Origin: Gemmatimonadota bacterium
GTDB taxonomy: Bacteria > Gemmatimonadota > Gemmatimonadetes > Longimicrobiales > Gaopeijiaceae
Length of the DNA stretch: 64,000 nt
NCBI GenBank assembly: GCA_022563405.1
Contig: JADFNK010000004.1
Span: forward strand, 1-64,000
Reading direction: 5' to 3'
Part shown: in pieces, positions 16,156-33,263 of the stretch
Numbering within the stretch: the stretch's first letter is position 1
Layout: every line of letters starts with the position of its first letter
Notes under the pieces: generated by a model
What the model was told of the DNA's origin: nothing
The model's input: the letters and a program-made list of their open reading frames with translations, nothing else
Databases searched by the model: none
Translations under genes and position numbers: made by a program

Positions 16156-16416
16156 ATGTCCGAGCAAATTTCCGACCAAACGTCCGAGCGTGTTATTGAG
16201 GGTCTCCGGATCCACATCGACCGAGACCTATGCGTCTGCTTCGGGGACTGCATCGAGGCAGCGCCGGGGGTGTTCGAGTTCGACGAGGAGGACATAGCGG
16301 TGTTCGTGAATGAGGCGGGCACCATCACTCGGGAAGAATTGATCGCCGCATGCGCTTCTTGCCCCGTGGACGCACTGACGGCATTCGACCAAAAGGGGAA
16401 GCAACTCGCTCCGTAA
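16156..16416 (+). CDS. Single-cluster ferredoxin
   Basis: 86 residues from ATG 16156. Cluster ligands are in DLCVCFGDC near residues 26-34 and ACASCPVDAL near 68-77, matching the [4Fe-4S]/[3Fe-4S] ferredoxins with pattern C-x5-C plus a distant C-P. The second ligand position is altered: the usual C-x2-(C/D)-x2-C reads C-V-C-F-G-D-C, so a [3Fe-4S] cluster is possible. It begins the set ferredoxin, Mrp, PCP_red, ABC, permease, with one base between its stop and the Mrp start. It may supply electrons to the radical SAM enzyme downstream or be cargo of the Mrp protein. Confidence 0.85.
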   Translation: MSEQISDQTSERVIEGLRIHIDRDLCVCFGDCIEAAPGVFEFDEEDIAVFVNEAGTITREELIAACASCPVDALTAFDQKGKQLAP

Positions 16417-16417
16417 G

Positions 16418-17341
16418 ATGCGCAAGATCAGAACCTACAAGGACGTCACGCACGACACCGGCTCTGGGCTGCTCGAGCAGGTCGTGGACCAGCAACACCG
16501 CCTCGCCGACCGCCTCGCTCTGGTCCGGTCCGTGGTGGCCGTCGCCAGTGGCAAAGGCGGCGTGGGCAAGAGCGCCATCACCGCAAACCTCGCCGCCGCT
16601 CTCGCGGGGAGAGGGCTCGCCGTCGGGGCCGTCGACGCGGACCTCAACGGGCCGTCTTTAGCCCGCATGTTGGGCGTATCCGGTGCCCGCTTGGCCGATC
16701 GGGCCAGCGGAGTGGAGCCGGCCGAAAGCCCATCGGGAGTACGGGTCATGTCCATGGAGTTCCTCCAGCAGGAAGAGGACGCTCCCCTGCGCTGGCGAGA
16801 GCCCGAAATGGGGAGGTTCATTTGGCAGAGCACCCTCGAAACGGGGGTCCTCCGGGAGTTCCTGGGCGACGTGGAGTGGGGAGAGCTGGACGTACTCCTG
16901 GTCGATGTACCGCCAGGGACCGACAAGATTGCACGGCTCCTGGAGCTGGTCCCGGAGCTCGATCAGATGCTCATGGTAACGACCCCGTCGGAAACGTCTC
17001 GGTTCGTGGTGTCGAAATCCGTTCGTATGGCCCGTGAGGCCGCCGTCGGAACGGTCGCGCTGGTCGCGAACATGGTCGGCCATACGTGTCCAGAGTGCGG
17101 CCATGTGTCCGAACTCTTCATGGGTGACGGCGTCAAACGCCTCGAAGAGGAATCCGGCGTACCGGTCTGGGCTCAGATCCCCTTCGATCCGCGATTCGGC
17201 GCCGCCACGGACTCGGGCACGCCGCTCGTGATCACGGACCCCGACGCCCCCTCGTGCCACGCGATTCTCGCGTTGGCCGACCGGGTCGAAGAGCAGATCG
17301 GAATCCGTGGCAGGGACGCAGTCGAGGAGGTGGGCTCATGA
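16418..17341 (+). CDS. Mrp/NBP35 family Fe-S cluster carrier ATPase
   Basis: 307 residues. Deviant Walker A ASGKGGVGKSAITANLAAAL near residue 42, ADLNGPSLARMLG switch region and DVLLVDVPPGT Walker B. The conserved CxxC that bridges an Fe-S cluster is HTCPECGH near residue 226. No N-terminal DUF59/MIP18 domain is present. Mrp/ApbC proteins bind and transfer [4Fe-4S] clusters in the cytoplasm. Its position between a ferredoxin and the PCP_red proteins suggests cluster supply to this island. Its stop overlaps the next start (ATGA at 17338). Confidence 0.9.
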   Translation: MRKIRTYKDVTHDTGSGLLEQVVDQQHRLADRLALVRSVVAVASGKGGVGKSAITANLAAALAGRGLAVGAVDADLNGPSLARMLGVSGARLADRASGVEPAESPSGVRVMSMEFLQQEEDAPLRWREPEMGRFIWQSTLETGVLREFLGDVEWGELDVLLVDVPPGTDKIARLLELVPELDQMLMVTTPSETSRFVVSKSVRMAREAAVGTVALVANMVGHTCPECGHVSELFMGDGVKRLEEESGVPVWAQIPFDPRFGAATDSGTPLVITDPDAPSCHAILALADRVEEQIGIRGRDAVEEVGS

Positions 17342-17838
17342 AGTTCCTTTGCGTGGAATGCGACAAGGTCATGGACTTCGCCGAGCGCCAGATCCCCGGA
17401 GACGGGACGCTCGCCGCCGTGTTCACGTGCGGATCGTGCGACCGGGAGATCGCGATGCTCACCAACCCGATGGAGACGCAGCTCATCTCCAGCTTGGGCG
17501 TGAAGATCGGCGGACGCGAAGTCCCTGCCCAGCCCATGGAGCTGGCCCGCACCTCGCTCGAGGGCGGGCGCGACGATGCGTTCGTCTTGTCGGAGGACAT
17601 TCCGCTCGCCTCGGGCGAGTCGGCGACTCCAGGCGAGGGCGCGAGTGCCGGCACGGCCACCGTCGGTCGCGTTGTGTGGACGCCGGAGGCCACCGGCCGG
17701 CTCGAGCGCGTCCCCAGCTTCGTCCGGGGTATGGTGAAGCGGATCTACACCGATTGGGCACGCGAGAAGGGCGTTTCGGAGATCACGCCCGAAAGCATGG
17801 ACCGAGCCCGCACGGAGTTGGGCCTGGAAGGGATGTAG
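17338..17838 (+). CDS. Zinc-ribbon protein with C-terminal PCP_red domain
   Basis: 166 residues from ATG 17338 (MKFLCVECDKVMDF), chosen over an earlier in-frame ATG because it overlaps the mrp stop. The N-terminus has two CxxC pairs (CVEC, CGSC) about 30 residues apart, a zinc-ribbon or rubredoxin-like knuckle. The C-terminal 45 residues (WTPEATGRLERVPSFVRGMV, then ITPESMDRAR) match the PCP_red domain, named from the protochlorophyllide reductase B subunit. No photosynthesis genes are nearby. Two other proteins in this island carry the same domain, so it probably interacts with a tetrapyrrole or with the radical SAM enzyme. Confidence 0.8.
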   Translation: MKFLCVECDKVMDFAERQIPGDGTLAAVFTCGSCDREIAMLTNPMETQLISSLGVKIGGREVPAQPMELARTSLEGGRDDAFVLSEDIPLASGESATPGEGASAGTATVGRVVWTPEATGRLERVPSFVRGMVKRIYTDWAREKGVSEITPESMDRARTELGLEGM

Positions 17839-17840
17839 GC

Positions 17841-18836
17841 TTGTTCGCGGCCACGGAGCTTTCCTTCACCTATCCCTCGGGCCGTAAAGGTCTGGGAAAG
17901 GTCTCCCTCAAAGGAGCCCCCGGGGACCGGGTGGTCGTAATGGGCCCGAACGGATCCGGGAAGAGCACGCTGCTCCGCCTCGTATCTACCGAGCTCCCCT
18001 CCAGCCCAGGATCGCTCGAGCTTTTCGGCGAAGCGTGGGAATCCTCCAGGAGAGACTTTCGCAAGAGGAGAGACCTGCGAAAGAAGATCGGGATCGTGCA
18101 GGATACGCCGGTTCACGTGGAAGATCTCACGGGGATGGAGAACGGGCTCCTGTTCGCGGAGCTCTACGGGTTGCCCAGAGCCGAAGCTCTGGGCGCCTTT
18201 GCGGCCTTGTTCACGTCGCTCGGCTTGGACGAGGCGCTCGACGTCCCGACGAGGGAGTACTCGTACGGAATGAAGAAGAAGCTTCTCATCGCGGAGGCTT
18301 TGGTTCATAACCCCGACCTGCTCATAGTGGACGAGCCCGCACTCGGCTTGGATCCACCTTCACGGGCAGCCCTCCTTCGAATACTCGAGGAGCGCTCGGA
18401 GCAGGGCGTGTGCATCCTCGCCGCCACCAACGAACCCGCGCTGGCCCAGGAGCTGGCCACAGTGGTCGTCCTTCTCCACGAAGGAGAAGTCGTCGCACAC
18501 GGCAGCCCAGCCGAGCTTTTGGCCAAGGTGGGCGGTGCCACGCGCATCGAAGTGCACGTCACCGGCTCTCTGCCGGCCGACCTCACGACCACGGGCCCCG
18601 CCTTTGAAGGGCTCCCGGCGGACGTCGTCTCCATTCGGCAACTGCCCGGGCGCATCATCGCCGAGAGCAGATCGGGCTCCGATGTCCTGCCGCAATTGGT
18701 CGGCGCCGTCCTCGATGCGGGGCTGAAGATCGAGCGGGTCGAGATACGTGAACCCGACCTCACGGACGTGTTTACGCTCTTCACCGGCCGGGCCTTGGGC
18801 ACAGAGGCCTCCGACAGGCCCGTAGAGAATCCGTGA
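17841..18836 (+). CDS. ABC transporter ATP-binding protein
   Basis: 331 residues. TTG 17841 is chosen because GGAAGGGA precedes it, it sits two bases after the previous stop, and the protein starts with a typical LFAATELSFTYPSG strand. Walker A GPNGSGKST, signature YSYGMKKK (degenerate LSGGQ), Walker B LLIVDEPALGLDP. The switch His position reads Asn (ILAATNEPA). A C-terminal domain of about 110 residues resembles the regulatory extension of drug- and Nod-type exporters. It pairs with the permease downstream (GTGA overlap). Export of haem or a cofactor for the respiratory island is conceivable but unproven. Confidence 0.87.
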   Translation: MFAATELSFTYPSGRKGLGKVSLKGAPGDRVVVMGPNGSGKSTLLRLVSTELPSSPGSLELFGEAWESSRRDFRKRRDLRKKIGIVQDTPVHVEDLTGMENGLLFAELYGLPRAEALGAFAALFTSLGLDEALDVPTREYSYGMKKKLLIAEALVHNPDLLIVDEPALGLDPPSRAALLRILEERSEQGVCILAATNEPALAQELATVVVLLHEGEVVAHGSPAELLAKVGGATRIEVHVTGSLPADLTTTGPAFEGLPADVVSIRQLPGRIIAESRSGSDVLPQLVGAVLDAGLKIERVEIREPDLTDVFTLFTGRALGTEASDRPVENP

Positions 18837-19543
18837 CACTCCCCATCTGGAGAACGGAGTGGCTCACCGCCCTTCGACGCCGACGTCTCCTGGTGCTCAA
18901 CACGCTGATCCCCTTGGTGTTTGTGGCGCCCATCGCCCTCAGTGCGGCCCCGGCGGTGCACTCCGCGGCCGCCTTCACCGTGCTCTTCGCGCTCTTCGGC
19001 ACCTTCGGGTCGAGCATCCCGCTGATCCGCGACGGTGAATCCGGGCTCCTCCGGCGTTACGTGCTCACGGGAGTCCACCCCGGTGGTCTCCTACTCCAGC
19101 GCGTGTTCGCCAACGCGGCACTCGACCTGATGGAGTTGGCGCCGTCGGTGTTGGTCATCTTCGTAGCTCGGGGGAGCTCGGTCCCTCAAGTGGCCATGGT
19201 CCTACCGGCGATGGTGGTCGGGCTGGTCGCGGCGAACGCATTAGGGGCGCTCACCGCCGCCCTGGCCAAATCAGTCGCCGAAGGGGCACTCTTCTCGGCG
19301 GTGGCCGCCCTCCTTCTCCTGCATTGGGCGGGGACGTTTCGTACTCCTGTTCCCGGAACATGGCAAGCCACTCTGGAGACGTGGAATCCGTTCCGCCCGC
19401 TCCATGAGAGTTTGCTCGCGGCCGTGGGCGGCGGGCCCGATTTGGACCTGGCGCTACTCACGATTCCCGTCGGGATCACTCTCGCGGTGTTGCTCCTGAT
19501 CGCTGCCGGCGGCCGCTATACCATAGGGCTCGGCGGTCGCTGA
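18833..19543 (+). CDS. ABC-2 type transporter permease
   Basis: 236 residues starting at GTG 18833, which overlaps the stop of the ATPase gene. Six hydrophobic segments are visible (for example NTLIPLVFVAPIALSAAPAV, VLFALFGTFGSSIPL, AVLLLIAAGG), with a cytoplasmic N-terminus (WRTEWLTALRRRR). This is the layout of the ABC-2/CcmB-like permeases. The substrate is unknown. It ends the first transcription unit of the island. Confidence 0.82.
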   Translation: MTLPIWRTEWLTALRRRRLLVLNTLIPLVFVAPIALSAAPAVHSAAAFTVLFALFGTFGSSIPLIRDGESGLLRRYVLTGVHPGGLLLQRVFANAALDLMELAPSVLVIFVARGSSVPQVAMVLPAMVVGLVAANALGALTAALAKSVAEGALFSAVAALLLLHWAGTFRTPVPGTWQATLETWNPFRPLHESLLAAVGGGPDLDLALLTIPVGITLAVLLLIAAGGRYTIGLGGR

Positions 19544-19565
19544 GATCCGGCTCTGCGGCCAGCCG

Positions 19566-19595
19566 TTGACAGCCCTGAGAAGGGTCGGGTATACT
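19566..19595 (+). promoter_or_regulatory. Strong sigma-70-type promoter of the USP/radical SAM/cytochrome operon
   Basis: A perfect -35 TTGACA (19566-19571) and a -10 TATACT (19590-19595) with an 18-base spacer. It is the best consensus promoter I see in the window. It lies 23 bases after the permease stop and about 380 bases before the USP gene, so transcripts would carry a leader of about 375 bases. Confidence 0.65.
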
Positions 19596-19975
19596 CACTT
19601 TCCACCACATGCACCATTTGGAACAAGCGCCGATTCAGTAAGGCACCGAGGACCGGGTCTTCATTGATCCGAACGCTTCGCCTCCGAGGTCGGGACCTCT
19701 GGTTTGGCGATAAACGATGGGTTATCGATGTGGGAGATTGGGACTCCGATCGTGCTTGGTACGGCGGTCGCTTGCTGTGGGTTACCGGTAGCCCTATCTG
19801 TGTATGGAAATTCTGACTAATGGCTGCGTGCCTCTAGACCGAATCAGATCGCACTACGCATGTCCTTCCGGCTTTGAAGACGGAGCCCGCCAGCAGCTTC
19901 GCGGGGGACGAGGGCCGTTCGTGCGATCGGTACGTGAGGGGTGCCAGATAATCCGGGCAAACGCCCAAGGCGCTT
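19596..19975 (+). promoter_or_regulatory. Long 5' leader with two inverted repeats
   Basis: About 380 bases without a convincing gene. It contains a 14-base palindrome GAGGTCGGGACCTC (19686-19699) and, nine bases later, an inverted repeat CGATAA/TTATCG (19708-19713 and 19722-19727). It matches no riboswitch class that I recognise. Either the palindromes are operators for an internal promoter, or this is a structured regulatory leader. A 60-codon open frame at 19804-19986 has no SD and looks accidental. Confidence 0.45.
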
Positions 19976-22141
19976 ATGTACCGTGAACTTTTCGTACCCG
20001 TCGACAACTCCCAGCACTCCTATTGGGCCGTAGACCGCGCCATCGAGATCTGTAAGCACTCCGAGGGACGGATCACTGGTAACCACGTGTACGCGGCGCG
20101 GCTTCACGATGTGCGGTTTCGCCAGCTGGAGACGGGACTTCCCGCGCAGTTTCAATCCGCTAAAGAGATCAAGCGGCAGCGAAAAATTCACGACAAACTG
20201 ATCGAGAAGGGCCTCCAGCTCATCTCGGACTCCTTTCTCGATCAGACCGCCAAAAGTTGTGACGCGGCCGGCGTACCGCTGACCCGCCAACTCCTCGAGG
20301 GCATCCACTACGAAGAGGTGGTTCGGGAAGCCAACCGAGGCCTCGGCCGCCTTCCCAGCTTGATCGGCTTCGACCCGAACATCGCGGACAAGTACGACGG
20401 CGGTGAGACTGTCCGTAGCGATGTCATCGTGGATGAGGACGGGCGGATCATCGCAGAGGATGAGGAGCAGGACGAGAAGCTCGCCGGGTCCAGTGGGCGC
20501 GAATACGACCTCCTCGTGATCGGTGCCCACGGAATCGGCAAACAGCCCTCCTCACAGCTGGGTGGAATGGTGTCGCGGGTCATCCGCCAGGTCGAGAAGG
20601 ACACGTTGATCGTCAAGGACGATCGCGCACTCGCGGGTGGCGACTGGATCGTCTGCATCGACGGTTCCTCGTACGCATACAAGGCCATGAGGCAGACTCT
20701 GGAGATGGCCCGAGAGTTCGGGGCGAAGCTCCACGTATGCTCGGCCTTCGACGTGGAGTATCACCACGCCGTCTTCGGTAACATCAAGGACATTCTTTCC
20801 GTGCAGGCTTCGAAGGTCTTCAAGTTCGAGGAGCAGGAGGAACTCCATAACAACATCATCGACAAGGGTCTTCTGAAGCTGGCGCAGGCCAACCTCAAGC
20901 GGGCGCAGGTGATGGCTGAGGACTTCCCCGACGTCGAGGTCGAGACTCAGATCCTCGTCGGCAAGCCGTTCCAGTGCATCCTTCAGTGGGTCGAGGAAAT
21001 CAACCCGAGCCTTCTGATCTTCGCCCGCCACGGGGGGCACCGGATCGAGGGTACCGACATGGGCTCCCAGGCGGAGAACTTGTGTCGGCTCGTGCAGACA
21101 AACATCCTGCTCATCGGCATTACCGATGTGCGCCCGGATGACATTCCCTGGATCGAAGAGGACGGCGAGACCGGCCTCGAGTGGGCGCCCGAGGCCGAAG
21201 TCCGGATCCTCCGGGTACCGCCGTTCGCACTGGGGATCGCCCGCAAGGCCGTGGAAGAGTACACGCTCGACAACTACGGCCCAGGAGCCAACGGCGTGTA
21301 CCGGGAAGACGAAATCGTACAGGCCGCTTCGAACGGCGCCTCGGCCAACGAATCCTCGTCTAACGGCGTCTCGGCCGACGGCGAAGGGGCGACCCTCACC
21401 GGAACCGAGTCCGCCACCGATAGCGCGAGTCCGGGCACCTCGGTACCCCCGCTCGATGCCCGAGGACTCCCGATGGTCACGAGCGCTCGCCTCGACGAAG
21501 CCATCACCAAGCTGCTTCCAACCCACATGCAGTTGATCATGGGGATCGGAACGGCCGAAGAGCTCGTCCTCGCCGAGGTGAAGGCCGAGGAGGCGATGAA
21601 GCGGACGCTGGTCAGCGGTGTGGATGCCGACCCTGAGCCGGACGTACCCATGATCACGGCCACCTGCCCGCACAGCGGTCATCCGCTCACGCGTGAGCGG
21701 ACGGCGGCCGACCCGGTCCAATGGACCCAGGAGGCCTTCGAGCGACTGAAGCTGGTGCCGCTGATCGCGAGGCCGCTGGCCCGCAACACGGTGGAGCGAT
21801 TCGCCCGTGAGAACGATTTCTGGAGAGTCACCACACCGGTCATGGATGAGAACAAGCAGGCCATGATCGAGGCCGACGAGTTCGACATGGACACCATGTT
21901 GGTCATGTTCCGCGAGCTCCAGACCAAGCAGATCAAGGCGGCAGCAGAGGGCGTCGACGGTTTGACTCCCGAGATGCGCAAGTTCATCGAGGAGGCCAAG
22001 GCCAGCGGTGTGACGCGCTGCCCGATTCGGGACGTGGCCGAAGCCGCCGAGAACTGCCCGGTGGACATCAAGACCGTCTCACCCGAGGACGCGAAGGCCG
22101 CGATCGAGCAGTTCATGAACAAGGAACCCAGCGAAGCGTGA
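19976..22141 (+). CDS. Tandem universal stress protein with two PCP_red-like domains
   Basis: 721 residues. Two UspA-like units: the first ends with the nucleotide-binding motif VIGAHGIGKQPSSQLGGM, the second with FARHGGHRIEGTDMGSQAEN. After them come a PCP_red-like segment (residues about 402-450, EWAPEAEVRILRVPPFA), a Ser/Ala-rich linker and a second PCP_red-like segment (about 582-635, QWTQEAFERLKLVP). A helical C-terminus with two Cys (TRCPIRD, AENCPVD) follows. No signal peptide, so cytoplasmic. First gene of the long operon; its stop overlaps the radical SAM start (GTGA at 22138). Fusion of USP and tetrapyrrole-type domains suggests ATP-linked cofactor handling or sensing, which is inference. 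Confidence 0.82.
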   Translation: MYRELFVPVDNSQHSYWAVDRAIEICKHSEGRITGNHVYAARLHDVRFRQLETGLPAQFQSAKEIKRQRKIHDKLIEKGLQLISDSFLDQTAKSCDAAGVPLTRQLLEGIHYEEVVREANRGLGRLPSLIGFDPNIADKYDGGETVRSDVIVDEDGRIIAEDEEQDEKLAGSSGREYDLLVIGAHGIGKQPSSQLGGMVSRVIRQVEKDTLIVKDDRALAGGDWIVCIDGSSYAYKAMRQTLEMAREFGAKLHVCSAFDVEYHHAVFGNIKDILSVQASKVFKFEEQEELHNNIIDKGLLKLAQANLKRAQVMAEDFPDVEVETQILVGKPFQCILQWVEEINPSLLIFARHGGHRIEGTDMGSQAENLCRLVQTNILLIGITDVRPDDIPWIEEDGETGLEWAPEAEVRILRVPPFALGIARKAVEEYTLDNYGPGANGVYREDEIVQAASNGASANESSSNGVSADGEGATLTGTESATDSASPGTSVPPLDARGLPMVTSARLDEAITKLLPTHMQLIMGIGTAEELVLAEVKAEEAMKRTLVSGVDADPEPDVPMITATCPHSGHPLTRERTAADPVQWTQEAFERLKLVPLIARPLARNTVERFARENDFWRVTTPVMDENKQAMIEADEFDMDTMLVMFRELQTKQIKAAAEGVDGLTPEMRKFIEEAKASGVTRCPIRDVAEAAENCPVDIKTVSPEDAKAAIEQFMNKEPSEA

Positions 22142-23535
22142 GCAGAGCAGTCGACTTCAGGTCCTCTTCTTCGGCAACTCTGGCACCTCCCGCTCCGGAG
22201 GGACTCGAGACGGTCGCGCCGAGCGGCAGGCGTGGTCCGTACACTCCGCATATCGTTGCGTGGAACCTCACGAAGCGATGCAATCTGGCGTGCGCGCACT
22301 GTTATATCTCGGCGGGTTCCTGGCATACAGCCGACGATGAGCTCTCGACACAGGAGTGCCTCCGCATCCTGGATGAAGTTCTCGACGTAAACCCCAACCC
22401 CATGCTGATCCTCACGGGGGGAGAGCCCCTCCTGCGAGATGACCTGGAGACCCTTGCGGAGCGAGCCTCGTCGAGGGGCGCCACGGTTGTGGTCGGAACG
22501 AACGGGACGCGCCTGACCGACGAACGTATCCATTCTCTACTGGAAGCCGGAGTTAAAGGTGTCGCGGTGAGTATCGACTCGCTGCGTCCCGAGTACCATG
22601 ATCGATTCCGGCACGGTGGGGGTGCACTCAAGGACACGATGGCTGCGGTCGAGCGGTGCTCCGTTCGAGGGCTGGATTTTGTTATTCAGACGACCGTCAC
22701 GACCGGCAATCGGCACGAAATAGCGGACTTGGCTCGCTGGTCGGCCGAGGCCGGAGCCGTTTCCTTCAACGTCTATTTCGTGGTCCCGACCGGGCGCGCA
22801 GAACACATGCAGGGTATGAGTCCTGAAGAGAACGACGAGGTCCTACGGGAGCTCGTCGAGCTGGAGGGGACCTATCGCGGCCGCATGATGGTCCGCTCGA
22901 AGTGCCAGCCTCAACTCATGCGGCACGTCGTCCAGGGCGATCCGGAGTCTCCGCTGCTGAACTATGAGACTCGTTGCCCATGCGGAGTCCACTACGTGCG
23001 CATCACGCCCGAGGGCAAGGTCACTCCGTGTCCTTATATGCCTGTGGTCGCGGGAGACCTGTCGACGCAGAGTTTTCAGGAAATCTGGGAGTCGTCGCCC
23101 GTCTTCACCCAACTCAGGTCAGGCGAGCTTGGGGGAAAGTGTGGCCGGTGCGAGTATCGCGAAGTGTGCGGAGGATGCCGCGCCCGCGCCTATGCCGACA
23201 GCGGCGATTTTATGGGTCCGGATGATTCCTGCGCCTACGATCCATCCGGAGAGATACCGCTGATCGCTGCCCGGCGCCCAGTCTCGTACGGCCAGTCGGC
23301 CTCCAGCGAGTCTGCTACTTCGGTGCCTCTCGAATGGACCCCGGAGGCCCTCGCCCGTATCGACGGCATACCGAGCTTCGTTCGGGGAGTGGTGACGGCG
23401 AGGGTCGAGAAGTTCGCCCATGACCGAGGCTACACGTGCGTGGATGTGGAAGTCATGGAGGAGGTTCGCCGCAAGCTCCCCGTGGATTTCTCCAAGAAAC
23501 TTCCGTTCTTCTTGGGACGAGGGGGAAGGGCATGA
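22138..23535 (+). CDS. Radical SAM/SPASM protein (AhbD/NirJ-like) with PCP_red domain
   Basis: 465 residues from GTG 22138. The radical SAM cluster motif is CNLACAHC near residue 49 (C-x3-C-x2-C), with the GGEPLL motif near residue 98. The C-terminal SPASM region has many Cys (CPCGVHY, TPCPYM, CGRCEYREVCGGC, SCAYDP) for one or two auxiliary clusters. The layout resembles AhbD and NirJ, which modify iron-coproporphyrin or haem d1 precursors. Residues about 399-455 (EWTPEALARIDGIPSFVRG) form a PCP_red domain like those in two neighbouring proteins. A haem-modifying role for the bd-like protein immediately downstream (ATGA overlap at 23532) is likely but unproven. Confidence 0.87.
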   Translation: MSRAVDFRSSSSATLAPPAPEGLETVAPSGRRGPYTPHIVAWNLTKRCNLACAHCYISAGSWHTADDELSTQECLRILDEVLDVNPNPMLILTGGEPLLRDDLETLAERASSRGATVVVGTNGTRLTDERIHSLLEAGVKGVAVSIDSLRPEYHDRFRHGGGALKDTMAAVERCSVRGLDFVIQTTVTTGNRHEIADLARWSAEAGAVSFNVYFVVPTGRAEHMQGMSPEENDEVLRELVELEGTYRGRMMVRSKCQPQLMRHVVQGDPESPLLNYETRCPCGVHYVRITPEGKVTPCPYMPVVAGDLSTQSFQEIWESSPVFTQLRSGELGGKCGRCEYREVCGGCRARAYADSGDFMGPDDSCAYDPSGEIPLIAARRPVSYGQSASSESATSVPLEWTPEALARIDGIPSFVRGVVTARVEKFAHDRGYTCVDVEVMEEVRRKLPVDFSKKLPFFLGRGGRA

Positions 23536-25280
23536 GACTGAGCTTGAAGCTCGTGGGGGTGATGAGTCTCTCCGCGCTGGCCCTTCACCTATTCCCCGAG
23601 GTGGCCGGGGCGCAGGAGATCGCCGGCCGAATCTACGGAGATTTCCCCTTTATCGGGGGGCGTGTGGCGGTCTGGGGGGCGGCGCAGATCCACCTTCTCT
23701 TCGCGGCTTTCGTCCTCGGCGTGCCGATGTTCGCAGTCGTCGCCGAAGCCGTTGGCATGTTCGGGGGAGACCAGAAGTACGATAAGCTCGCGAAGGAGTT
23801 CACCCGGTTGTTGCTCGTTGCGTACTCCGCCACGGCGATCTGGGGAGCGATCCTCTCCTTCCTCCTCATCACCATCTTCCCGAACCTCTGGGTCTACCTT
23901 GCGGAGATCTTCGAGGTCTCCATGTGGATCTACGTAGGACTCTTCTTCTTCGAGTCCTTCACCCTCTACTTGTACTACTACGGCTGGGATCGCTGGAGTC
24001 AGGGGCGGGCCAAGCTGGGCCACTTGGGGCTGGGGCTCTTGCTGAACGTCTTTGGCACGGCGGTGATGCTCATCGCCAACTCGTGGCTGACGTACATGAT
24101 GAGCCCACCCGCTGAGGTGACTTCCGACACGCCGGCAAGCATGATCGACGCGTGGGGCGCCTTCGCGAACGCAACCTGGATGCCCATCAACATCCACCGG
24201 GCGATCGCCAACCTCGTGTTCGGTGGAGCGATCGTGGGCGCCTATGCCGCCTACCGCTTCCTGATGGCCAAGACGGACGAGGAGCGCGCCCACTACGACT
24301 GGATGGGCTACATCGGAAACCTGGTCGCGATCGGCTGGCTCATCGTCCTGCCCTTCGCGGGCTACTACCTCGGCCGAGAGCTCTACGAGTACAGCCCGCA
24401 GATGGGCAACACCCTGATGGGCGGCTTCATGAGCTGGCTCTGGATCATCCAGGCCTACTTGATCGGTGTGCTCTTCCTGGCCGGCAACTACTACTTGTGG
24501 GTGGGTATGGGACGGATTCCGGGGGCCGAGCGCTTCGCCCCCTACACCAAGTACATGTTGGTCGTGCTCGTGATAGGCGTGATCGTGTGGGCGACGCCGC
24601 ACACGATGATCGCCAACCGGGAAGAGGTCGACGCCATGGGCGGGGTGTACCACCCGTTCCTGGGTGTCCTCGGGGTCATGAGCGCCAAGAACACGGCAGT
24701 GAACATCATGATCTTGACCACGTTCCTGTCGTTCCTGATCTACGGGCGCGCGAACAAGGAGTGGACGGTTCCATGGGCCAAGACGGGGACGTGGGTGCAG
24801 GCGGCTCTGTTCGTGGTCGCCGCGGCCATCGTGATGTTCTACGGCATATACGGCTATTTCGTCAGTGCGATCGAGCGCGTCGATTTCTCGGTCTATCAAG
24901 TGGTGGCAGTGCTCGGTGCCATCTTCGGCGTGGGCATAATCCATCTGTTCATGTTGCGGGGCGCGAAGTCGCGCGGTGCGATCCGTTGGGGCCAGATGCC
25001 CCCCCGTTCCCAGTACGCACTATTCATCCTAGCCGTGACCTTCACATGGCTGATGGGTCTCATGGGCTTCGCCCGGAGTGGCATCCGCCAGCACTGGCAC
25101 GTGTGGGAAGTCATACAGGATACGAGTGAGTGGGCGGCGACACCGGCCCTCGGGTTTGCAGCCATCGTGATCTCCGCCTGCGTGCTGATCTTCTTCGTGC
25201 TCGTGGCGTTCATCTTCTGGCTCGGTGGGTTGGCCGAAAAGCCGATCGTATCGAACGTGGGCACGGGCGCCTCCGACTGA
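23532..25280 (+). CDS. Cytochrome bd-family membrane protein (CydA-like), no CydB partner
   Basis: About 582 residues from ATG 23532. A signal-like first helix ending VAGAQ is followed by about 12 membrane helices. Resemblance to CydA is clear around WGAAQIHLLFAAFVLG (His19 equivalent), LFFFESFTLYLYYYGWDRW (Glu107 region) and NIHRAIANLVFGG (His186 equivalent). By eye the Glu99 equivalent is missing (WIYVG where CydA has AIEG), and I find no GRQPW motif or Q-loop. No cydB is present. It is embedded among c-type cytochromes, so electrons may come from cytochrome c rather than quinol. It may belong to one of the divergent bd families lacking a quinol site. Confidence 0.83.
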   Translation: MRLSLKLVGVMSLSALALHLFPEVAGAQEIAGRIYGDFPFIGGRVAVWGAAQIHLLFAAFVLGVPMFAVVAEAVGMFGGDQKYDKLAKEFTRLLLVAYSATAIWGAILSFLLITIFPNLWVYLAEIFEVSMWIYVGLFFFESFTLYLYYYGWDRWSQGRAKLGHLGLGLLLNVFGTAVMLIANSWLTYMMSPPAEVTSDTPASMIDAWGAFANATWMPINIHRAIANLVFGGAIVGAYAAYRFLMAKTDEERAHYDWMGYIGNLVAIGWLIVLPFAGYYLGRELYEYSPQMGNTLMGGFMSWLWIIQAYLIGVLFLAGNYYLWVGMGRIPGAERFAPYTKYMLVVLVIGVIVWATPHTMIANREEVDAMGGVYHPFLGVLGVMSAKNTAVNIMILTTFLSFLIYGRANKEWTVPWAKTGTWVQAALFVVAAAIVMFYGIYGYFVSAIERVDFSVYQVVAVLGAIFGVGIIHLFMLRGAKSRGAIRWGQMPPRSQYALFILAVTFTWLMGLMGFARSGIRQHWHVWEVIQDTSEWAATPALGFAAIVISACVLIFFVLVAFIFWLGGLAEKPIVSNVGTGASD

Positions 25281-26716
25281 TGTCGAATTCGACGGTGGGC
25301 CTTCTGGCCTCGTTCGAATACGTAGACTCGGCCGTGAACGCCATCGGCGAGTTACGGGCGGCCGGCCTCAAGAAGATCACGGCTTACATGCCGTATCCCG
25401 ACCACCACATCGAAGAAGCGCTTGGCTACGATCAGAGCCCTGTCAGGGTGTGGGCGTTGGCGGGTGGACTCCTGGGCGCCGCCGGCGGGTTCGCCCTGGC
25501 GTCTTTTACCTCGATGGATTGGCCCTTGGTCACGGGGGGCAAGCCGATCCTCTCGATGCCGGCATACGTGATCATCTCGTTCGAGATGATGGTGTTGTTC
25601 GGTGCGTTGGCTACCGTGATCGGGTTCTTCGTCAATAGCCGCCTTCCCTATGTCAAACCGATGGTGGTGTACGATCCCGAGTTCAGCGCGGGTAAGTTCG
25701 GGGTTTATGTGACGGTGGCCGTGGATCATCTCGACCGAGCCAGAGGCATCCTGAGGGGCCAGGACCCTGCTGAAATCCGGGAAGATCCTGTGGGAGTGAC
25801 CCATGCGCCGTCCGGAGTCGACCCGGGATCTGAAATCCCGGAGCTGGTGGGTGTGGCCCACGCGTCGGTGGGGGTGGCCCATGCCTCGTCGGCGTCCGAC
25901 TCGAAAAAACGCGAGTCTCGCAGGATACTGGTCGAGAACCTCAAGATCTTCGGGGTCGTGATCGGCACGATTGGCACGTTCACGTTCATCGCCAATGCCA
26001 TTCCGCAGCTACAGTCGGAGGTACCCGTGGCCGTCGGGGAGAACGTGAGCACGGCTGAGCTTGTCGTGCTTGGGGAGGCCCTCTTCAGTGGTGGCAGCTG
26101 TGTAGACTGTCACGGGCTTGGCGAGAGGGCGCCGAACCTTCTCACCGACCACGAGGGCGCCGGTACGATCGGCGTCCGGTGCGCGGATCGGGTGCCCGGC
26201 CAGGACTGCAAGGCATACCTCTACAGCTCGTTGGTGGACCCCGCTGCCTTTATGGTCCCCGGCTTCGCACCGATCATGACCGACCAGCGTAGCGGTCTCT
26301 CGAACGCGCAGATCTGGGCACTCGTGGCCTACTTGGAGTCGGTGGGCGGTGAGGCGACCGTGACGGGCGCAGACATCGCGGAGACCGGCGGTGGTTCGAG
26401 CGCGACAGCTGGTGCTCCGGCGGCGACCGCGGCCGGGCCTGCCACCGCCTCCATGGATCCCCTCGAGATCATGCGCGGCAATCTCTGCCTCGGCTGCCAC
26501 GTGTTCAACGGGGAGGGGGCTCCGTTGGGTCCCTCGTTCGACGGAATCGGCGCACGCATAGATGCCGACTATATCCGAGAGTCGATCCTGGATCCGGCCG
26601 CCGGCGCATCACCAGGCTTCGAGACGAGTGTAGGGTTGATGCCTCCGATTTTCGGTGACCAGCTCACCGCAGGTCAGTTGGAAGTCGTTGTACAGTTCCT
26701 GGCAAGCCAACGCTGA
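25280..26716 (+). CDS. ActD (DUF3341)-dihaem cytochrome c fusion
   Basis: 478 residues. ATG 25280 overlaps the previous stop (TGATG). Residues 1-175 match DUF3341, the ActD subunit of alternative complex III: VGLLASFEYVDSAVNAIGEL, YMPYPDHHIEEALG, two membrane helices, and WPLVTGGKPILSMPAYVIIS. A linker with VGVAHAS repeats and a further membrane helix (VVIGTIGTFTFIANAIPQ) leads to two cytochrome c domains with haem sites CVDCH (about 274) and CLGCH (about 403). In known ACIII, ActD is haem-free and separate from ActE, and its partners ActA, B, C and F are absent here. The fusion and its bd-like neighbour are unusual. Confidence 0.85.
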   Translation: MSNSTVGLLASFEYVDSAVNAIGELRAAGLKKITAYMPYPDHHIEEALGYDQSPVRVWALAGGLLGAAGGFALASFTSMDWPLVTGGKPILSMPAYVIISFEMMVLFGALATVIGFFVNSRLPYVKPMVVYDPEFSAGKFGVYVTVAVDHLDRARGILRGQDPAEIREDPVGVTHAPSGVDPGSEIPELVGVAHASVGVAHASSASDSKKRESRRILVENLKIFGVVIGTIGTFTFIANAIPQLQSEVPVAVGENVSTAELVVLGEALFSGGSCVDCHGLGERAPNLLTDHEGAGTIGVRCADRVPGQDCKAYLYSSLVDPAAFMVPGFAPIMTDQRSGLSNAQIWALVAYLESVGGEATVTGADIAETGGGSSATAGAPAATAAGPATASMDPLEIMRGNLCLGCHVFNGEGAPLGPSFDGIGARIDADYIRESILDPAAGASPGFETSVGLMPPIFGDQLTAGQLEVVVQFLASQR

Positions 26717-26735
26717 GGGGGAGGCGAGAATAGCG

Positions 26736-27536
26736 ATGGGCAAGTACTTGAAGCATCCCTTGGGCCAGGCTGTCCTGGTCTTCGTGGTTGCTTACTTCTT
26801 GTTGGATTTCGGAATCGAGTACATCCCGCCTCTGCTCGGATGGGCGAGCGCTCCCATTCCGAATTCGGTGCTGCTTCAGTATCTCATCACCGTGGGCGTG
26901 GGGATCCTCCTCTGGGTCAGCGACAACGACGCCCGCTGGGCTGAGTTCAAGGCTCCCATGCATCGCGTGATGGTGGACCCGGGCCAGAAGACGCTGCGGA
27001 ACTCGCTCATGGTGCTGGTGCCGGTCCTCGTGGCGTTCGCGACGTTCAATTCAGTAAGACCTTCCGTCTCAGCGCCGACCACCCTGCGCGCGATTCACCC
27101 GTCGGCTCCGGGCCAGTTCGTTTTCCAGGGGGCTACCCTGCAGCTCGCCGGTCTGGAAAACCCCTTGCGCTCGCAGGGCTCCATGGAGGAGCACTACGAA
27201 GAAGGGAAGCGCGTCTACTATGAAAACTGTGTTGGCTGTCATGGTGACGGACTCGACGGCCAGGGGCATTACGCGCATGGATTCAATCCGGCACCCCTGA
27301 GCTTCCAGGACGACAACACCATCGCGACGCTCGTCGAAGCCGTCGTTTTCTGGCGGATCGCGAAGGGGGGGCCCGGGCTCCCCAATGAGGGGGCTCCGTG
27401 GAACTCCGCCATGCCGGCGTGGGAGGACTTTCTCACGCAAGACGAGATCTGGTCCGTGATCATCTTCTTGTATGAGCAGACCGGTAATGAGCCCCGCACG
27501 TTTGAAGAGGAAGCCGGGGGAGGGGAGGCCGAATGA
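26736..27536 (+). CDS. Membrane-anchored monohaem cytochrome c
   Basis: 266 residues from ATG 26736, preceded by GAGGCGAG. Three hydrophobic helices come first (AVLVFVVAYFLLDFGIEYI, LLQYLITVGVGILLWV, SLMVLVPVLVAFATF), then a periplasmic cytochrome c domain with CVGCHGDG near residue 165 and a distal Met candidate in NSAMPAWEDF. Part of the quinol/cytochrome c island, 19 bases after the ActD fusion. Its stop overlaps the next start (ATGA at 27533). It probably relays electrons between the membrane complex and soluble cytochromes or the oxidase. Confidence 0.85.
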   Translation: MGKYLKHPLGQAVLVFVVAYFLLDFGIEYIPPLLGWASAPIPNSVLLQYLITVGVGILLWVSDNDARWAEFKAPMHRVMVDPGQKTLRNSLMVLVPVLVAFATFNSVRPSVSAPTTLRAIHPSAPGQFVFQGATLQLAGLENPLRSQGSMEEHYEEGKRVYYENCVGCHGDGLDGQGHYAHGFNPAPLSFQDDNTIATLVEAVVFWRIAKGGPGLPNEGAPWNSAMPAWEDFLTQDEIWSVIIFLYEQTGNEPRTFEEEAGGGEAE

Positions 27537-29119
27537 TGGCGGCGAGGCCGATGGCCCTGGCCGTCTTGTTCGCTGCAGCGGCTCTAGCTGCGGGCGACCT
27601 GAGCGCACAGGACGGCGACGATCTCGGCGAGGTCACCTACGTCCGTTGGTGCGCAGGCTGCCACGGTGTGGACGGGACCGGCAACGGTCCTGGCGCGGAG
27701 TACATGCTTCCGCGACCCCGGGACTTCACTTTGGCGCTGTACCAGATTCGTACCACGGCCAATGGCGCTCTTCCGACGGATGATGACATTCTCGCCATCA
27801 TCGACCGGGGGATGCCGGGCACGACGATGCCGGGATGGGAAAACCTTCTTTCGGACGACGAGAAGGAGGCGCTGGTAGAGTATCTCAAGTCGTTCTCCCG
27901 GTTCTTCACTCCCGATGAGGTCCCGCAGCCGCTCGATTTCGGTGGCGCCACCCGGGTCAACGCCGACGTGCTCGCTGAAGGTGAGGCCCAGTACCAAGCG
28001 CTCGAGTGCTGGAGGTGTCACGGCAATGAGGGCCGTGGCGACGGAGAGTCCTCACCGACACTGACCGATGACGTCTTGGATTTTCCCATCCGCGCGGCCG
28101 ACCTGACCGAGAACTGGCTGTTCAACGGTGGCGGAGAGGTCGAGGACATCCACCGTCGGATGCTGACAGGTCTGGACGGCACGCCCATGCCGACCCAAGC
28201 CGACCTCATCACGGCGGGCATCATCGACGAAGACCAGCTCTGGGCTCTTGCACACTACGTTCGCAGTCTTTCTCCAGACGACCCGCCGGGAATCACCGAG
28301 GTGGTCCGGGGTGTCCTCTTCGAGGACGCTCCGCTTCCCTCGTCCGTCAACGACGAGGCCTGGCTTGATGTCGAGCGCGCGTACCTCCCCCTGGTCGGAC
28401 AGATCATAGTGAGTCCGCGATGGTTCGACCCCCGGGTGGACGGCGTCTGGGTGCAGGCCGCGCACGACGGAGAATCCGTGGCCGTTCGTGTTAGCTGGAG
28501 CGACCCGAACAACAGCCCCGATCCCGAGTGGGCCGACTGGAAGTCCTCGATAATTTCGCTCATGCAGCCGAAGGAGGGAGACCCCCAGGACGAGGGGCCG
28601 ACGCCGGATCAACTCATGGTCCAGTTCCCGATGCAGATGCCTGAGGGTATGGAGATGCCGTTTTTCCTGAGGGGAGACGACAGCCGTTCTGTGTATCTGT
28701 GGCAGTGGCAGAGCGACCGTGATGGCGCCCTGGAGGGAGAGGCCCGCGGGTTCGGGACCGAAGCCTTCCAATCGGAGGGGGAAAACCTTACCGTAGACGC
28801 CTCTCATGCCGATGGGGAATGGCAGGTCATGTTCACGAGGCGGCTCGTCACGGATGACGAAGCCGACCTCGATTTCGTGACGGGTGAGGCCATTCCGATG
28901 GCCTTGTTCGCCTGGGATGGAGACAACGGGGAATCCGGCACCAGGGGTGCGGTCAGTTCTTGGTACTTCTTGTTCCTCGAGGAGGCCACTCCCACCACGG
29001 TGTATGTGTACCCCGCTTTGGCTATGCTGCTTACGTTCCTGCTGGGAATCTTGGTCGTACGCAGCGCCCAAAAGAGGGAGCGAGAGGGCGGTGAAGTAGT
29101 AAGCGAGACAGCGATTTAG
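27533..29119 (+). CDS. Dihaem cytochrome c fused to ethylbenzene-dehydrogenase-type haem b domain
   Basis: 528 residues. Signal peptide (MALAVLFAAAALAAG, LSAQ). Two class I cytochrome c domains with CAGCH near residue 40 and CWRCH near 162. Residues about 240-490 resemble the haem b-binding gamma subunit of type II DMSO-reductase-family enzymes (ethylbenzene dehydrogenase, nitrite oxidoreductase NxrC-like): WVQAAHDGESVAVRVSWSD, QFPMQMPEGMEMPFFLRGD, GEWQVMFTRRL. A C-terminal anchor helix (YVYPALAMLLTFLLGILVV) ends it. No molybdopterin subunit is nearby, so the domain probably acts as an extra electron relay. Confidence 0.82.
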   Translation: MMAARPMALAVLFAAAALAAGDLSAQDGDDLGEVTYVRWCAGCHGVDGTGNGPGAEYMLPRPRDFTLALYQIRTTANGALPTDDDILAIIDRGMPGTTMPGWENLLSDDEKEALVEYLKSFSRFFTPDEVPQPLDFGGATRVNADVLAEGEAQYQALECWRCHGNEGRGDGESSPTLTDDVLDFPIRAADLTENWLFNGGGEVEDIHRRMLTGLDGTPMPTQADLITAGIIDEDQLWALAHYVRSLSPDDPPGITEVVRGVLFEDAPLPSSVNDEAWLDVERAYLPLVGQIIVSPRWFDPRVDGVWVQAAHDGESVAVRVSWSDPNNSPDPEWADWKSSIISLMQPKEGDPQDEGPTPDQLMVQFPMQMPEGMEMPFFLRGDDSRSVYLWQWQSDRDGALEGEARGFGTEAFQSEGENLTVDASHADGEWQVMFTRRLVTDDEADLDFVTGEAIPMALFAWDGDNGESGTRGAVSSWYFLFLEEATPTTVYVYPALAMLLTFLLGILVVRSAQKREREGGEVVSETAI

Positions 29120-29148
29120 CTGAACCATTTTATCATATTGGAGGCATA

Positions 29149-29925
29149 ATGTCGGATCGATTCGAGTTGCGCGGGCTAGTCTGGCCCACACTCATGCTGC
29201 TGGTCATGGCCGGCTGCGGAGGCGGAGACGGTGGTGGTGGTGGTGACGCCGGTGGTGGTGCAGCCATGGAGGACCCGGTCGACGCGGCCACGGCGGGCAA
29301 CATCGCGGGCTCCATCGTTTTCGAGGGAGACGCGCCCAGCATGGCCGTCATCGACATGAGCCAGGAGTCCGTGTGTGCGGACAAGCACTCGTCCACACCG
29401 ATGATCCAGGAAGTGGTCGTCAACAGCAACGGTACCCTGGCCAACGTGTTCGTCTACGTGAAGGAGGGCCTGGAGAGCCTCCAGTTCCCGACGCCCGGAC
29501 CGGTACTGCTCGACCAAAACGGATGTGTCTACCTTCCGCACGTCTTGGGCGTGATGGTGGGCCAAGATATTACGATCAGGAACAGCGACGGACTGTTGCA
29601 CAACATCAACGCGTCGCCCACCGTCAATCGCGGATTCAACAGCAGCCAGCCGGTCTCTATGGAGAGCACGCGCAGCTTCGGGAGCGCCGAGATCATGGTG
29701 CCTCTACGCTGCGACGTACATGGTTGGATGACCGCCTACGTCGGCGTTGTCGATCATCCGAAGCACTCCGTGTCGAACGGTAGCGGCGCCTTCAGCCTGT
29801 CCACGCTGCCTCCGGGCGAGTACGTGATCGAGGCGTGGCACGAGCGTTACGGAACGCAGACCCAGAACGTGACGGTGACCACGGGTGAGACCACCGAAGT
29901 CACGTTCACGTTCAGCGCATCGTAA
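29149..29925 (+). CDS. Cupredoxin lipoprotein with carboxypeptidase-regulatory-like tail
   Basis: 258 residues. GGAGG six bases before ATG 29149. A lipoprotein signal ends VMAGC, then a Gly-rich spacer. The plastocyanin-like domain has the type 1 copper ligands His in LLHNINASP and Cys, His, Met in LRCDVHGWM. The C-terminal domain (FSLSTLPPGEYVIEAWHERY) is carboxypeptidase-regulatory-like. It is probably a periplasmic electron carrier between the cytochrome complex and the downstream oxidase. Last gene before the hairpin at 29935. Confidence 0.85.
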   Translation: MSDRFELRGLVWPTLMLLVMAGCGGGDGGGGGDAGGGAAMEDPVDAATAGNIAGSIVFEGDAPSMAVIDMSQESVCADKHSSTPMIQEVVVNSNGTLANVFVYVKEGLESLQFPTPGPVLLDQNGCVYLPHVLGVMVGQDITIRNSDGLLHNINASPTVNRGFNSSQPVSMESTRSFGSAEIMVPLRCDVHGWMTAYVGVVDHPKHSVSNGSGAFSLSTLPPGEYVIEAWHERYGTQTQNVTVTTGETTEVTFTFSAS

Positions 29926-30022: not shown

Positions 30023-30793
30023 ATGAATTTTTTCTGGCGGATGGGGATGTTGCTGGCCGGCATGCTTACCGTGGTCATCGTGTTGTGGGTCATAACCGGC
30101 CCCTCGTGGACGGACCTTTCCTGGGTGATGCCGGACAACACGGTGTCGACGTTCGGGCCCACCTTGGACAACCTGTGGCTCATAATCCTTTGGGTGACGG
30201 GTATCATATTCGTCGTCACGGAGATCACCTTGTTGGTCTTCATGGTGAAGTACCGCCACAAGGAGGGACGTAAGGCGGAGTACATCCACGGCAGCAATAA
30301 TGCCGAGATCGTCTGGACGACGGTCACCTTCGTCATCGTCATGGCTTTGGCCTTCTACTCCAAGGGCCTCTGGGACGAGATCCGTGATCCCAATCTCATC
30401 CCGGCCGACGCATATCAGATCCAGATGTTGGCCAGTCAGTTCGAGTGGAACGCCACCTATGCGGGCGCCGACGGACTGTTCGACACTGCGGATGACTTCA
30501 TTTCCCGAAACGTACTGCACATTCCGGTCGATCGACCCGTTGTAGTCCAGCTGATGGCCCAGGATGTGATTCATTCGTTCTTCCTTCCCGAATTCCGGGT
30601 GAAGCAGGACGCGGTGCCCGGCATGATCACACCGGTCTGGTTCGAGGCGACACGGATCGGTGAGTTTACCCTGGCCTGTGCCGAGCTCTGCGGGCTCGGG
30701 CACTATACAATGAGCGGGACGGTCATCGTCCACTCACAAGCTGATTTTCAAGACTGGCTCGCGCAGCAGCAAGCCGCGGCGGAGGACGACTGA
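30023..30793 (+). CDS. coxB: Cytochrome c oxidase subunit II
   Basis: 256 residues. Two N-terminal membrane hairpin helices (LLAGMLTVVIVLWVITG, LWLIILWVTGIIFVV; a third hydrophobic stretch TTVTFVIVMALAFY), then the cupredoxin domain with the binuclear CuA site: VIHSFFLP and CAELCGLGHYTM (C-x3-C-x3-H-x2-M). The haem c domain of caa3 oxidases is absent. GGGAGACGAGTGGG before the ATG is a good SD. Its stop overlaps the coxA start (TGATG at 30793). Confidence 0.95.
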   Translation: MNFFWRMGMLLAGMLTVVIVLWVITGPSWTDLSWVMPDNTVSTFGPTLDNLWLIILWVTGIIFVVTEITLLVFMVKYRHKEGRKAEYIHGSNNAEIVWTTVTFVIVMALAFYSKGLWDEIRDPNLIPADAYQIQMLASQFEWNATYAGADGLFDTADDFISRNVLHIPVDRPVVVQLMAQDVIHSFFLPEFRVKQDAVPGMITPVWFEATRIGEFTLACAELCGLGHYTMSGTVIVHSQADFQDWLAQQQAAAEDD

Positions 30794-32589: not shown

Positions 32590-32592
32590 CGC

Positions 32593-33249: not shown

Positions 33250-33263
33250 AGGCGGGACCAATC

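Follow-up and report, generated by a model that had tools for sequence, protein, structure and literature searches.

The locus raises the question of why four PCP_red domains, of a kind familiar mainly from the C-terminus of a chlorophyll-synthesising enzyme, are encoded in three proteins beside a bd-like cytochrome complex in a bacterium of the Gemmatimonadota. We analysed a window of 64,000 nucleotides (contig JADFNK010000004.1 of assembly GCA_022563405.1, positions 1 to 64,000), and all positions given here refer to it. An earlier note on this DNA had proposed that the gene set serves to mature a modified haem, or to insert it, for the CydA-like protein encoded downstream.

Gene order and the PCP_red proteins

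The genes of the set and of the oxidase that follows it are listed below.

16156..16416, + strand: ferredoxin with a single 4Fe-4S cluster, proposed electron donor (Pfam Fer4_13, 38 bits)
16418..17341, + strand: ApbC/Mrp-type P-loop NTPase, proposed Fe-S cluster carrier (Pfam ParA/NUBPL, 236 bits)
17338..17838, + strand: zinc-ribbon-like protein with a C-terminal PCP_red domain at 17677-17811 (PF08369, 52.9 bits); orthologues in Gemmatimonadota loci
17841..19543, + strand: ABC-2 type transporter, ATPase then permease, accessory (ABC_tran, 90 bits; ABC2_membrane, 34 bits)
19976..22141, + strand: universal stress protein (USP) with two PCP_red domains, at 21182-21268 (weak) and 21722-21856 (Usp, 91 bits; PCP_red, 54.6 bits in two stretches)
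22138..23535, + strand: AhbD/NirJ-like radical SAM/SPASM protein with a C-terminal PCP_red domain at 23335-23469 (Radical_SAM, 100 bits; SPASM, 41; PCP_red, 54.7)
23532..25280, + strand: CydA-like membrane protein of the long, bd-like type (Cyt_bd_oxida_I, 68.6 bits, N-terminal half only)
25280..26716, + strand: ActD domain fused to a dihaem cytochrome c (ActD, 143 bits; Cytochrom_C, 53 bits)
26736..27536, + strand: membrane-anchored monohaem cytochrome c (Cytochrome_CBB3, 38.8 bits)
27533..29119, + strand: dihaem cytochrome c with an EB_dh (haem b) domain, alt_NxrC-like (Cytochrom_C, 70 bits in two stretches; EB_dh, 64 bits)
29149..29925, + strand: periplasmic cupredoxin-like/carboxypeptidase-regulatory-like protein (CarboxypepD_reg, 39 bits), conserved in position in Gemmatimonadota loci
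30023..33536, + strand: aa3-type cytochrome c oxidase subunits II, I, III and IV (COX2; COX1, 490 bits; COX3; COX4_pro), conserved with the cassette

The stop of the ApbC-type gene overlaps the start of the zinc-ribbon PCP_red gene in an ATGA, and the same overlap joins the radical SAM gene to the CydA-like gene, which had rightly been placed immediately downstream. Overlaps also join the USP and radical SAM genes, the CydA-like and ActD-cytochrome genes, and the monohaem cytochrome c and EB_dh-cytochrome genes. The ferredoxin gene is found, at varying positions, in 18 of 19 Gemmatimonadota cassette loci. The ABC-2 pair, left out of the earlier note, lies inside the gene set and is variable, being missing in about half of the relatives. 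Two further amendments concern the downstream genes: the gene after the CydA-like gene encodes the fusion of ActD with a dihaem cytochrome c, and the complete aa3-type oxidase set belongs to the same conserved cluster.

The search with PF08369 that had been proposed as a check was run, and it located PCP_red where it had been described, namely at the C-terminus of the zinc-ribbon protein, twice in the USP protein and at the end of the radical SAM protein. Three of the four domains exceed the Pfam gathering threshold of 32.5 bits in a profile search of the assembly (58.2 bits at 23335-23469, 52.9 bits at 17677-17811 and 41.4 bits at 21722-21856), and only the match at 21182-21268 lies below it (22.7 bits). 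The weak domain is credible since the USP protein of relatives, for example in genomes G138, G020 and G131, carries two PCP_red domains above the cut-off. A separate hmmscan concurs, placing PCP_red at residues 114-158 of the zinc-ribbon protein, residues 400-444 of the radical SAM protein and in two stretches of the USP protein. Two CxxC pairs mark the zinc ribbon itself, although its Pfam score (15.7 bits) stays below the cut-off of 30.3. The near-invariant residues of PCP_red are only a Trp, a Pro and two Arg, and no conserved His, Cys or Met was found in it as a possible metal ligand. We found no paper on the role of PCP_red, even within dark protochlorophyllide reductase, and we know of no tetrapyrrole role for USP domains.

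PCP_red is shared with the C-terminus of BchB of the dark-operative protochlorophyllide reductase BchL/BchN/BchB (PDB 2xdq_B, E 8.4e-05). The PCP_red proteins described here, however, lack the oxidoreductase body of BchB, the NCBIfam model DPOR_BchB matches over its last ~60 positions only (44 bits, where the cut-off is 490), and the P-loop protein is of the ApbC type and not BchL. No PF08369 match beyond these four exists in the 3.25-Mb assembly, therefore no BchB is detected. PCP_red also occurs outside BchB in the standalone protein Asr4154 of Nostoc (PDB 2l09), whose host, unlike that of the present genes, is a chlorophyll-making cyanobacterium. For Asr4154 we know of no radical SAM, USP or CydA context.

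Co-occurrence across genomes

The gene set is a conserved cassette and not a chance cluster. It is conserved in 19 other Gemmatimonadota loci and is also present in Poribacteria, Chloroflexi and Actinobacteria-labelled MAGs, while a Nitrospirota-labelled MAG (L079) contains the USP-PCP_red and radical SAM-PCP_red genes. Co-occurrence of PCP_red with the CydA-like gene, which the earlier note had suggested surveying, is perfect within the samples of three phyla. In the Gemmatimonadota sample all 42 genomes with the long CydA-like protein have PCP_red and none of the 95 without PCP_red has the CydA-like protein; the corresponding counts are 12/12 and 0/134 in the Acidobacteriota sample. Both families are present in 57 of the 60 Nitrospinota genomes sampled and both are missing from the same three (57/57 and 0/3). 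Fisher p values are 4.7e-26, 2.9e-15 and 2.9e-5 for the Gemmatimonadota, Acidobacteriota and Nitrospinota, respectively, for genomes that are not independent of each other. Of 38 genomes found by a scan for the radical SAM protein only, 36 also match the CydA family, nearly all in its long form; in two Elusimicrobia MAGs the radical SAM-PCP_red gene is present and the CydA-like gene was not detected.

These data bear on whether the PCP_red and USP proteins could be stress or redox regulators that merely share an operon with unconnected neighbours. In its N-terminal part, the largest PCP_red protein is indeed a true universal stress protein, but such an arrangement seems scarcely credible, as the co-occurrence extends over three phyla and holds even where the genes are unlinked, as in Nitrospinota. 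Moreover, the radical SAM and CydA-like trees are broadly congruent (r = 0.65, permutation p = 0.0005).

Two other candidates were rejected. Genome G016 appeared to have PCP_red and to lack the CydA-like gene; since the cassette genes on its 9.6-kb contig share 83-87% DNA identity with those of acidobacterial cassettes, the contig is regarded as contaminating or recently transferred. PCP_red in Gemmatimonadota does not reflect phototrophy, as the genomes with BchB-sized, high-scoring matches mostly form a separate group without the CydA-like orthologue.

The CydA-like complex

A canonical quinol-oxidising cytochrome bd (CydAB) was defined by a full-length CydA match, the E. coli residues His19, Glu99, Glu107 and His186, and a CydB partner. 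The AlphaFold model of the CydA-like protein (pLDDT 78.6) has the CydA fold, with all top 10 Foldseek matches being CydA (E 1e-6 to 1e-8, TM-score by target 0.47-0.61), and His19, Glu107 and His186 are kept. Glu99, however, is not conserved, and a Tyr (Tyr134) that is invariant in the CydA-like family lies at or beside its place; the profile match covers the N-terminal half only, and no CydB partner was found in the cluster. The complex encoded here is thus not canonical cytochrome bd.

It resembles instead the enigmatic cluster of a cytochrome bd-like oxidase, alt_NxrC and two cytochromes c in Nitrospira, Nitrospina and anammox bacteria, as described in the portions of PMC3578206 and PMC6606698 that we consulted. 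The CydA-like protein, dihaem cytochrome c, membrane cytochrome c and cytochrome c/EB_dh protein of the window correspond to those accounts, the subunits and their order are the same as in two Nitrospinota loci (L110 and L115), and the CydA-like proteins are about 46% identical. In contrast to that cluster, the present one comes without nitrite oxidoreductase and an aa3 oxidase follows. Retention of haem b ligands and absence of quinol-binding residues are described for the bd-like cluster and the OR-N type CydAA' in the parts consulted of PMC3578206, PMC6606698, PMC10839748 and PMC12342949. The consulted parts of the published cluster descriptions mention no PCP_red or radical SAM partner, and our searches brought up no literature in which PCP_red is connected with radical SAM, CydA or nitrite oxidisers; as far as searched, the link is undescribed.

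The ActD domain recalls alternative complex III (ActABCDEF), but it is the only component of that complex in the cluster, ActA/B/C being absent from it. ActD was also rejected as a part of the system, as its fusion is lineage-specific: relatives match residues 204-479 only and have ActD outside the cluster, elsewhere in the genome. With ActD as the marker for alternative complex III, the idea that the CydA-like complex replaces complex III as a general rule was discarded, since nearly all genomes have ActD outside the cassette, whether or not they carry the latter. As a side observation, bc1-type cytochrome b is rarer among genomes that have the cassette; a search with PF14589 (NrfD_2) was uninformative on the complex III question.

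The radical SAM protein and links to tetrapyrrole metabolism

The radical SAM protein belongs to the SPASM class, defined by the CX3CX2C motif and the SPASM cysteines: both Pfam domains are above cut-off, the cluster cysteines are invariant across alignments and the model (pLDDT 82) has the SPASM fold. It shares this architecture with the AhbD/NirJ haem enzymes, and its best NCBIfam scores are to TIGR04055 NirJ2 (296 bits) and TIGR04545 AhbD (282 bits). These top scores could point to a haem b synthase (AhbD) or a haem d1 enzyme in an alternative haem pathway, which would make the cassette plain haem biosynthesis. However, the scores are far under the equivalog cut-offs of 500 bits, and the extra C-terminal PCP_red, present in 79 of 80 matches of the radical SAM scan, sets the family apart from AhbD/NirJ. 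Ferrochelatase is encoded in 40 of 42 cassette genomes as compared to 41 of 108 others, and coprohaem decarboxylase-family, HemE, HemY-like and HemH genes lie near several cassettes. Because the hosts use ferrochelatase, they can make ordinary haem without the radical SAM protein, and we consider plain haem biosynthesis very improbable.

Haem-biosynthesis genes adjoin the cassette in three Gemmatimonadota loci (L129, L125 and L127) and HemH lies 11-24 kb from it in 7 genomes. All 7 Nitrospinota genomes examined encode a fusion of PCP_red with a coprohaem decarboxylase-family protein, and in the one genome inspected the fusion gene adjoins a gene for a haem-binding THAP4/nitrobindin-type protein. 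The AhbD-like partner, this fusion and the adjacent hem genes independently back the earlier suggestion that PCP_red serves a tetrapyrrole other than chlorophyll.

We favour, with slightly better than even confidence, the interpretation that the cassette is dedicated to maturing or inserting a tetrapyrrole for the bd-like complex encoded downstream. Weighing against it, the parts are scattered over the genome in Nitrospinota and some Poribacteria, the two Elusimicrobia MAGs yielded no CydA-like gene, PCP_red has no conserved metal ligand, USP domains are not known to handle tetrapyrroles, and peptides are a frequent substrate of SPASM enzymes. The domains, operon structure, near-perfect co-occurrence and haem-gene links are observed, and we propose the substrate, the chemistry, the carrier role of PCP_red and the client subunit. 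The PCP_red modules of the zinc-ribbon and USP proteins would hold haem or a haem precursor and hand it on to the radical SAM/SPASM protein, itself equipped with a PCP_red module. With clusters from the ApbC-type carrier and electrons from the ferredoxin, this enzyme would act on the tetrapyrrole, and the product would be loaded into the CydA-like subunit or one of its cytochrome partners; the client could equally be such a partner as the CydA-like protein named in the earlier note. In this scheme the high-spin haem pocket of the CydA-like subunit is remodelled relative to canonical CydA, in line with the non-conserved Glu99, and the complex would exchange electrons between membrane and periplasm and feed the adjacent aa3 oxidase.

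A bolder proposal, which we make only tentatively, is that the AhbD/NirJ-like enzyme and the PCP_red carriers make a previously unknown haem or chlorin and insert it into bd-like complexes. It is also conceivable, though somewhat unlikely, that the cassette acts in haem chaperoning or insertion only, with ordinary haem b being delivered, reduced or transiently adjusted for an unusually haem-rich complex and no new haem being made. The adjoining hem genes, the nearly constant ferrochelatase and the Nitrospinota fusion, whose partner is of a family of ordinary haem b enzymes, fit such a role; mere delivery would nevertheless not be expected to involve a radical SAM/SPASM enzyme whose cluster cysteines are all invariant, and to our knowledge canonical cytochrome bd assembly requires no protein of this kind.

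SPASM radical SAM enzymes frequently modify peptides, and the structural neighbours nearest to the modelled protein, PqqE and SkfB (the best PDB fold matches) and SuiB, are peptide or protein maturases. The enzyme could accordingly cross-link or oxidise a polypeptide, either the CydA-like protein, where the invariant Tyr134 is suggestive, or a cytochrome, with PCP_red, devoid of a conserved metal ligand, as a protein-docking module. We judge this decidedly unlikely, as NCBIfam favours NirJ2/AhbD over PqqE (109 bits) and PCP_red is independently fused to tetrapyrrole enzymes, namely BchB and the coprohaem decarboxylase-family protein.

A tetrapyrrole maturation or insertion system would give PCP_red a function as a tetrapyrrole-handling module outside photosynthesis. 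For more than ten years the bd-like complexes found in nitrite oxidisers and anammox bacteria have been described as enigmatic; a near-constant set of companion genes in three phyla offers a handle on how bd-like complexes are built and which cofactor to seek in them. Should the bolder proposal of a new haem or chlorin extend to these closely similar complexes, the nitrogen cycle would partly depend on an undescribed respiratory cofactor. Nitrospinota is the phylum of abundant marine nitrite oxidisers, and many of its genomes carry about nine copies of PCP_red.

PCP_red proteins and their gene neighbourhood

Profile search with PF08369 returned four matches in the whole 3.25-Mb assembly, all of them on contig 26, inside the window, and spread over the three proteins that the earlier note had named. 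Three of the four domains lie above the Pfam threshold and the fourth is weak in the window genome; the universal-stress-protein (USP) protein of relatives carries two good domains.

Members of the PCP_red cassette
Zn-ribbon-like protein, one PCP_red domain
USP protein, two PCP_red domains
Radical SAM/SPASM protein, PCP_red domain at the C-terminus
Neighbours: 4Fe-4S ferredoxin, ApbC/Mrp-type NTPase and ABC-2 transporter (variable)
Further members, in order: CydA-like protein, ActD-dihaem cytochrome c fusion, membrane cytochrome c
Then: dihaem cytochrome c with EB_dh haem b domain, cupredoxin-like protein, aa3 oxidase

Stop and start codons overlap at the ApbC/Zn-ribbon, USP/radical SAM, radical SAM/CydA-like, CydA-like/ActD-cytochrome and membrane cytochrome c/EB_dh-cytochrome junctions, and synthesis of the radical SAM and CydA-like proteins is therefore probably coupled. 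The fusion (25280-26716) joins the cluster's dihaem cytochrome c to an alternative complex III ActD domain, the sole ActD match in the assembly. In relatives this cytochrome is unfused and ActD lies elsewhere in the genome.

PCP_red domains also occur in other arrangements. A 278-residue Nitrospinota protein (L107:4668-5504) consists over nearly all of its length of three such domains. BchB-type genomes contain, besides the BchB-sized match, a second PCP_red-bearing reading frame of about 530-770 residues with an insertion within the domain (for example G145:C20:1708-1860, G135:C25:105116-105268 and G079:C6:489384-489536).

The downstream CydA-like complex

The AlphaFold model of the CydA-like protein (pLDDT 78.6) has a CydA-like fold and its ten best Foldseek matches are all CydA subunits, with sequence similarity confined to the N-terminal half. 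The E. coli CydA residues His19, Glu107 and His186 are retained as His54, Glu141 and His222. Glu99 is without a counterpart; at or beside its place lies Tyr134, which is invariant. Two Nitrospinota loci (L110, L115) encode the same subunits in identical order. The complex matches a published cluster that Nitrospira, Nitrospina and anammox bacteria share, comprising a bd-like oxidase, alt_NxrC and two c-type cytochromes; its oxidase is described as having 14 helices, retained haem b ligands, missing quinol residues and an undetermined role (PMC3578206, PMC6606698). It is thus of a known but enigmatic kind. Our literature search found no paper linking PCP_red or the radical SAM protein to this complex.

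The PCP_red cassette is associated with the CydA-like complex

Among 150 Gemmatimonadota genomes, PCP_red was found in 55 and a CydA-like orthologue (>850 bits) in 42, all within the 55. Most of the remaining 13 contain a BchB-sized, high-scoring match and a few have stray matches; G016 is the single cassette-like exception. Over the cassette genes its 9.6-kb contig 1 (L012) shares 83-87% DNA identity with the cassettes of Acidobacteriota, and it probably represents contamination or recent transfer. Apart from this contig, all of the 20 loci fetched from the phylum share the gene set in nearly constant order; the cassette is conserved.

In the other two phyla presence was counted irrespective of gene linkage. 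PCP_red and the CydA-like gene each occur in 57 of 60 Nitrospinota genomes, the same three lacking both. The long CydA-like protein is present in 12 of 149 Acidobacteriota genomes, all with PCP_red, and in none of the 134 without it. The association proposed earlier thus holds in every CydA-like genome (42/42, 12/12 and 57/57 in Gemmatimonadota, Acidobacteriota and Nitrospinota), with Fisher p values of 4.7e-26, 2.9e-15 and 2.9e-5, respectively, which overstate significance because the genomes are related. These samples come from the three phyla named and consist partly of MAGs.

Searching some 85,000 species genomes with the radical SAM part alone gave 318 relatives, and 79 of the best 80 carry the PCP_red tail; these records are labelled Acidobacteria, Poribacteria, Nitrospina, Nitrospiria, Chloroflexi, Elusimicrobia and Acidimicrobiia. 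CydA-family matches, nearly all including the long type, were present in 36 of 38 scan-derived genomes checked, the other two being small Elusimicrobia MAGs. The radical SAM tree broadly agrees with that of CydA (distance correlation 0.65, permutation p 0.0005) with one clear exception, the MAG Candidatus Kutchimonas denitrificans (L066), whose cassette is close to that of the window. In this MAG the CydA-like protein falls among Gemmatimonadota and the radical SAM protein among Acidobacteriota-type sequences, suggesting that the cassette halves were exchanged.

A possible role in tetrapyrrole maturation

The radical SAM protein scores best, below equivalog thresholds, against models of NirJ2 and AhbD, which are haem-pathway enzymes. 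The rival reading, in which it modifies a protein rather than a tetrapyrrole, stays alive because the closest SPASM enzymes of known structure by fold are peptide maturases. All seven Nitrospinota genomes examined (L109:4957-5916; L135-L140) encode a fusion of PCP_red with a protein of the coprohaem decarboxylase family (PF06778, 191 bits), whose best-matching solved structures carry the annotation coprohaem decarboxylase, and in the one inspected in detail, L109, the adjacent gene encodes a haem-binding THAP4/nitrobindin-type protein. With BchB and the AhbD-like protein, PCP_red thus has three tetrapyrrole-linked partners.

Across 353 aligned PCP_red domains only Trp1, Arg8, Pro13 and Arg17 are near-invariant and no metal ligand is conserved. 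Any tetrapyrrole binding would therefore be non-axial, and the same feature is compatible with a less likely alternative, in which PCP_red is a protein-docking module.

Haem genes provide a further, indirect link to tetrapyrroles. At L129, and similarly at L132, both from the same family as the window, the cassette is preceded by a series of genes for ferrochelatase, glutamyl-tRNA reductase, HemC, HemD, HemB, a ChdC-family protein, HemE, a HemY-like protein and a HemL-like aminotransferase; at L125, L126 and L127 the oxidase genes are followed by ChdC-family, HemE, ferrochelatase and HemY-like genes. Ferrochelatase lies 11-24 kb from the cassette in seven genomes and is encoded in 40 of the 42 Gemmatimonadota cassette genomes versus 41 of the 108 others (p 1.9e-11). 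Cassette hosts are thus haem producers and do not depend on the radical SAM protein for ordinary haem b.

The earlier note had proposed that the set matures a modified haem, or inserts it into the CydA-like protein. Its tetrapyrrole part is plausible, with four lines of indirect support in the model scores, fusion, neighbouring haem genes and ferrochelatase, and the parsimonious reading is a tetrapyrrole maturation or insertion system for the CydA-like complex. The tetrapyrrole would be bound by the PCP_red modules and acted on by the radical SAM enzyme, for which ApbC would supply clusters and ferredoxin electrons; the resulting product would pass to the CydA-like complex. That this product is a chemically modified haem can be hypothesized. 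The gene set belongs to none of the described systems tested; as a maturation cassette devoted to the respiratory enzyme next to it, it is of a familiar general kind.

Two further observations concern haem genes in Gemmatimonadota. Ferrochelatase was not detectable in 69 of the 150 Gemmatimonadota genomes, which suggests haem auxotrophy or another route. Beside the haem genes of L125, a coprohaem decarboxylase-family protein is fused to a Rieske [2Fe-2S] domain (L125:8668-9750).
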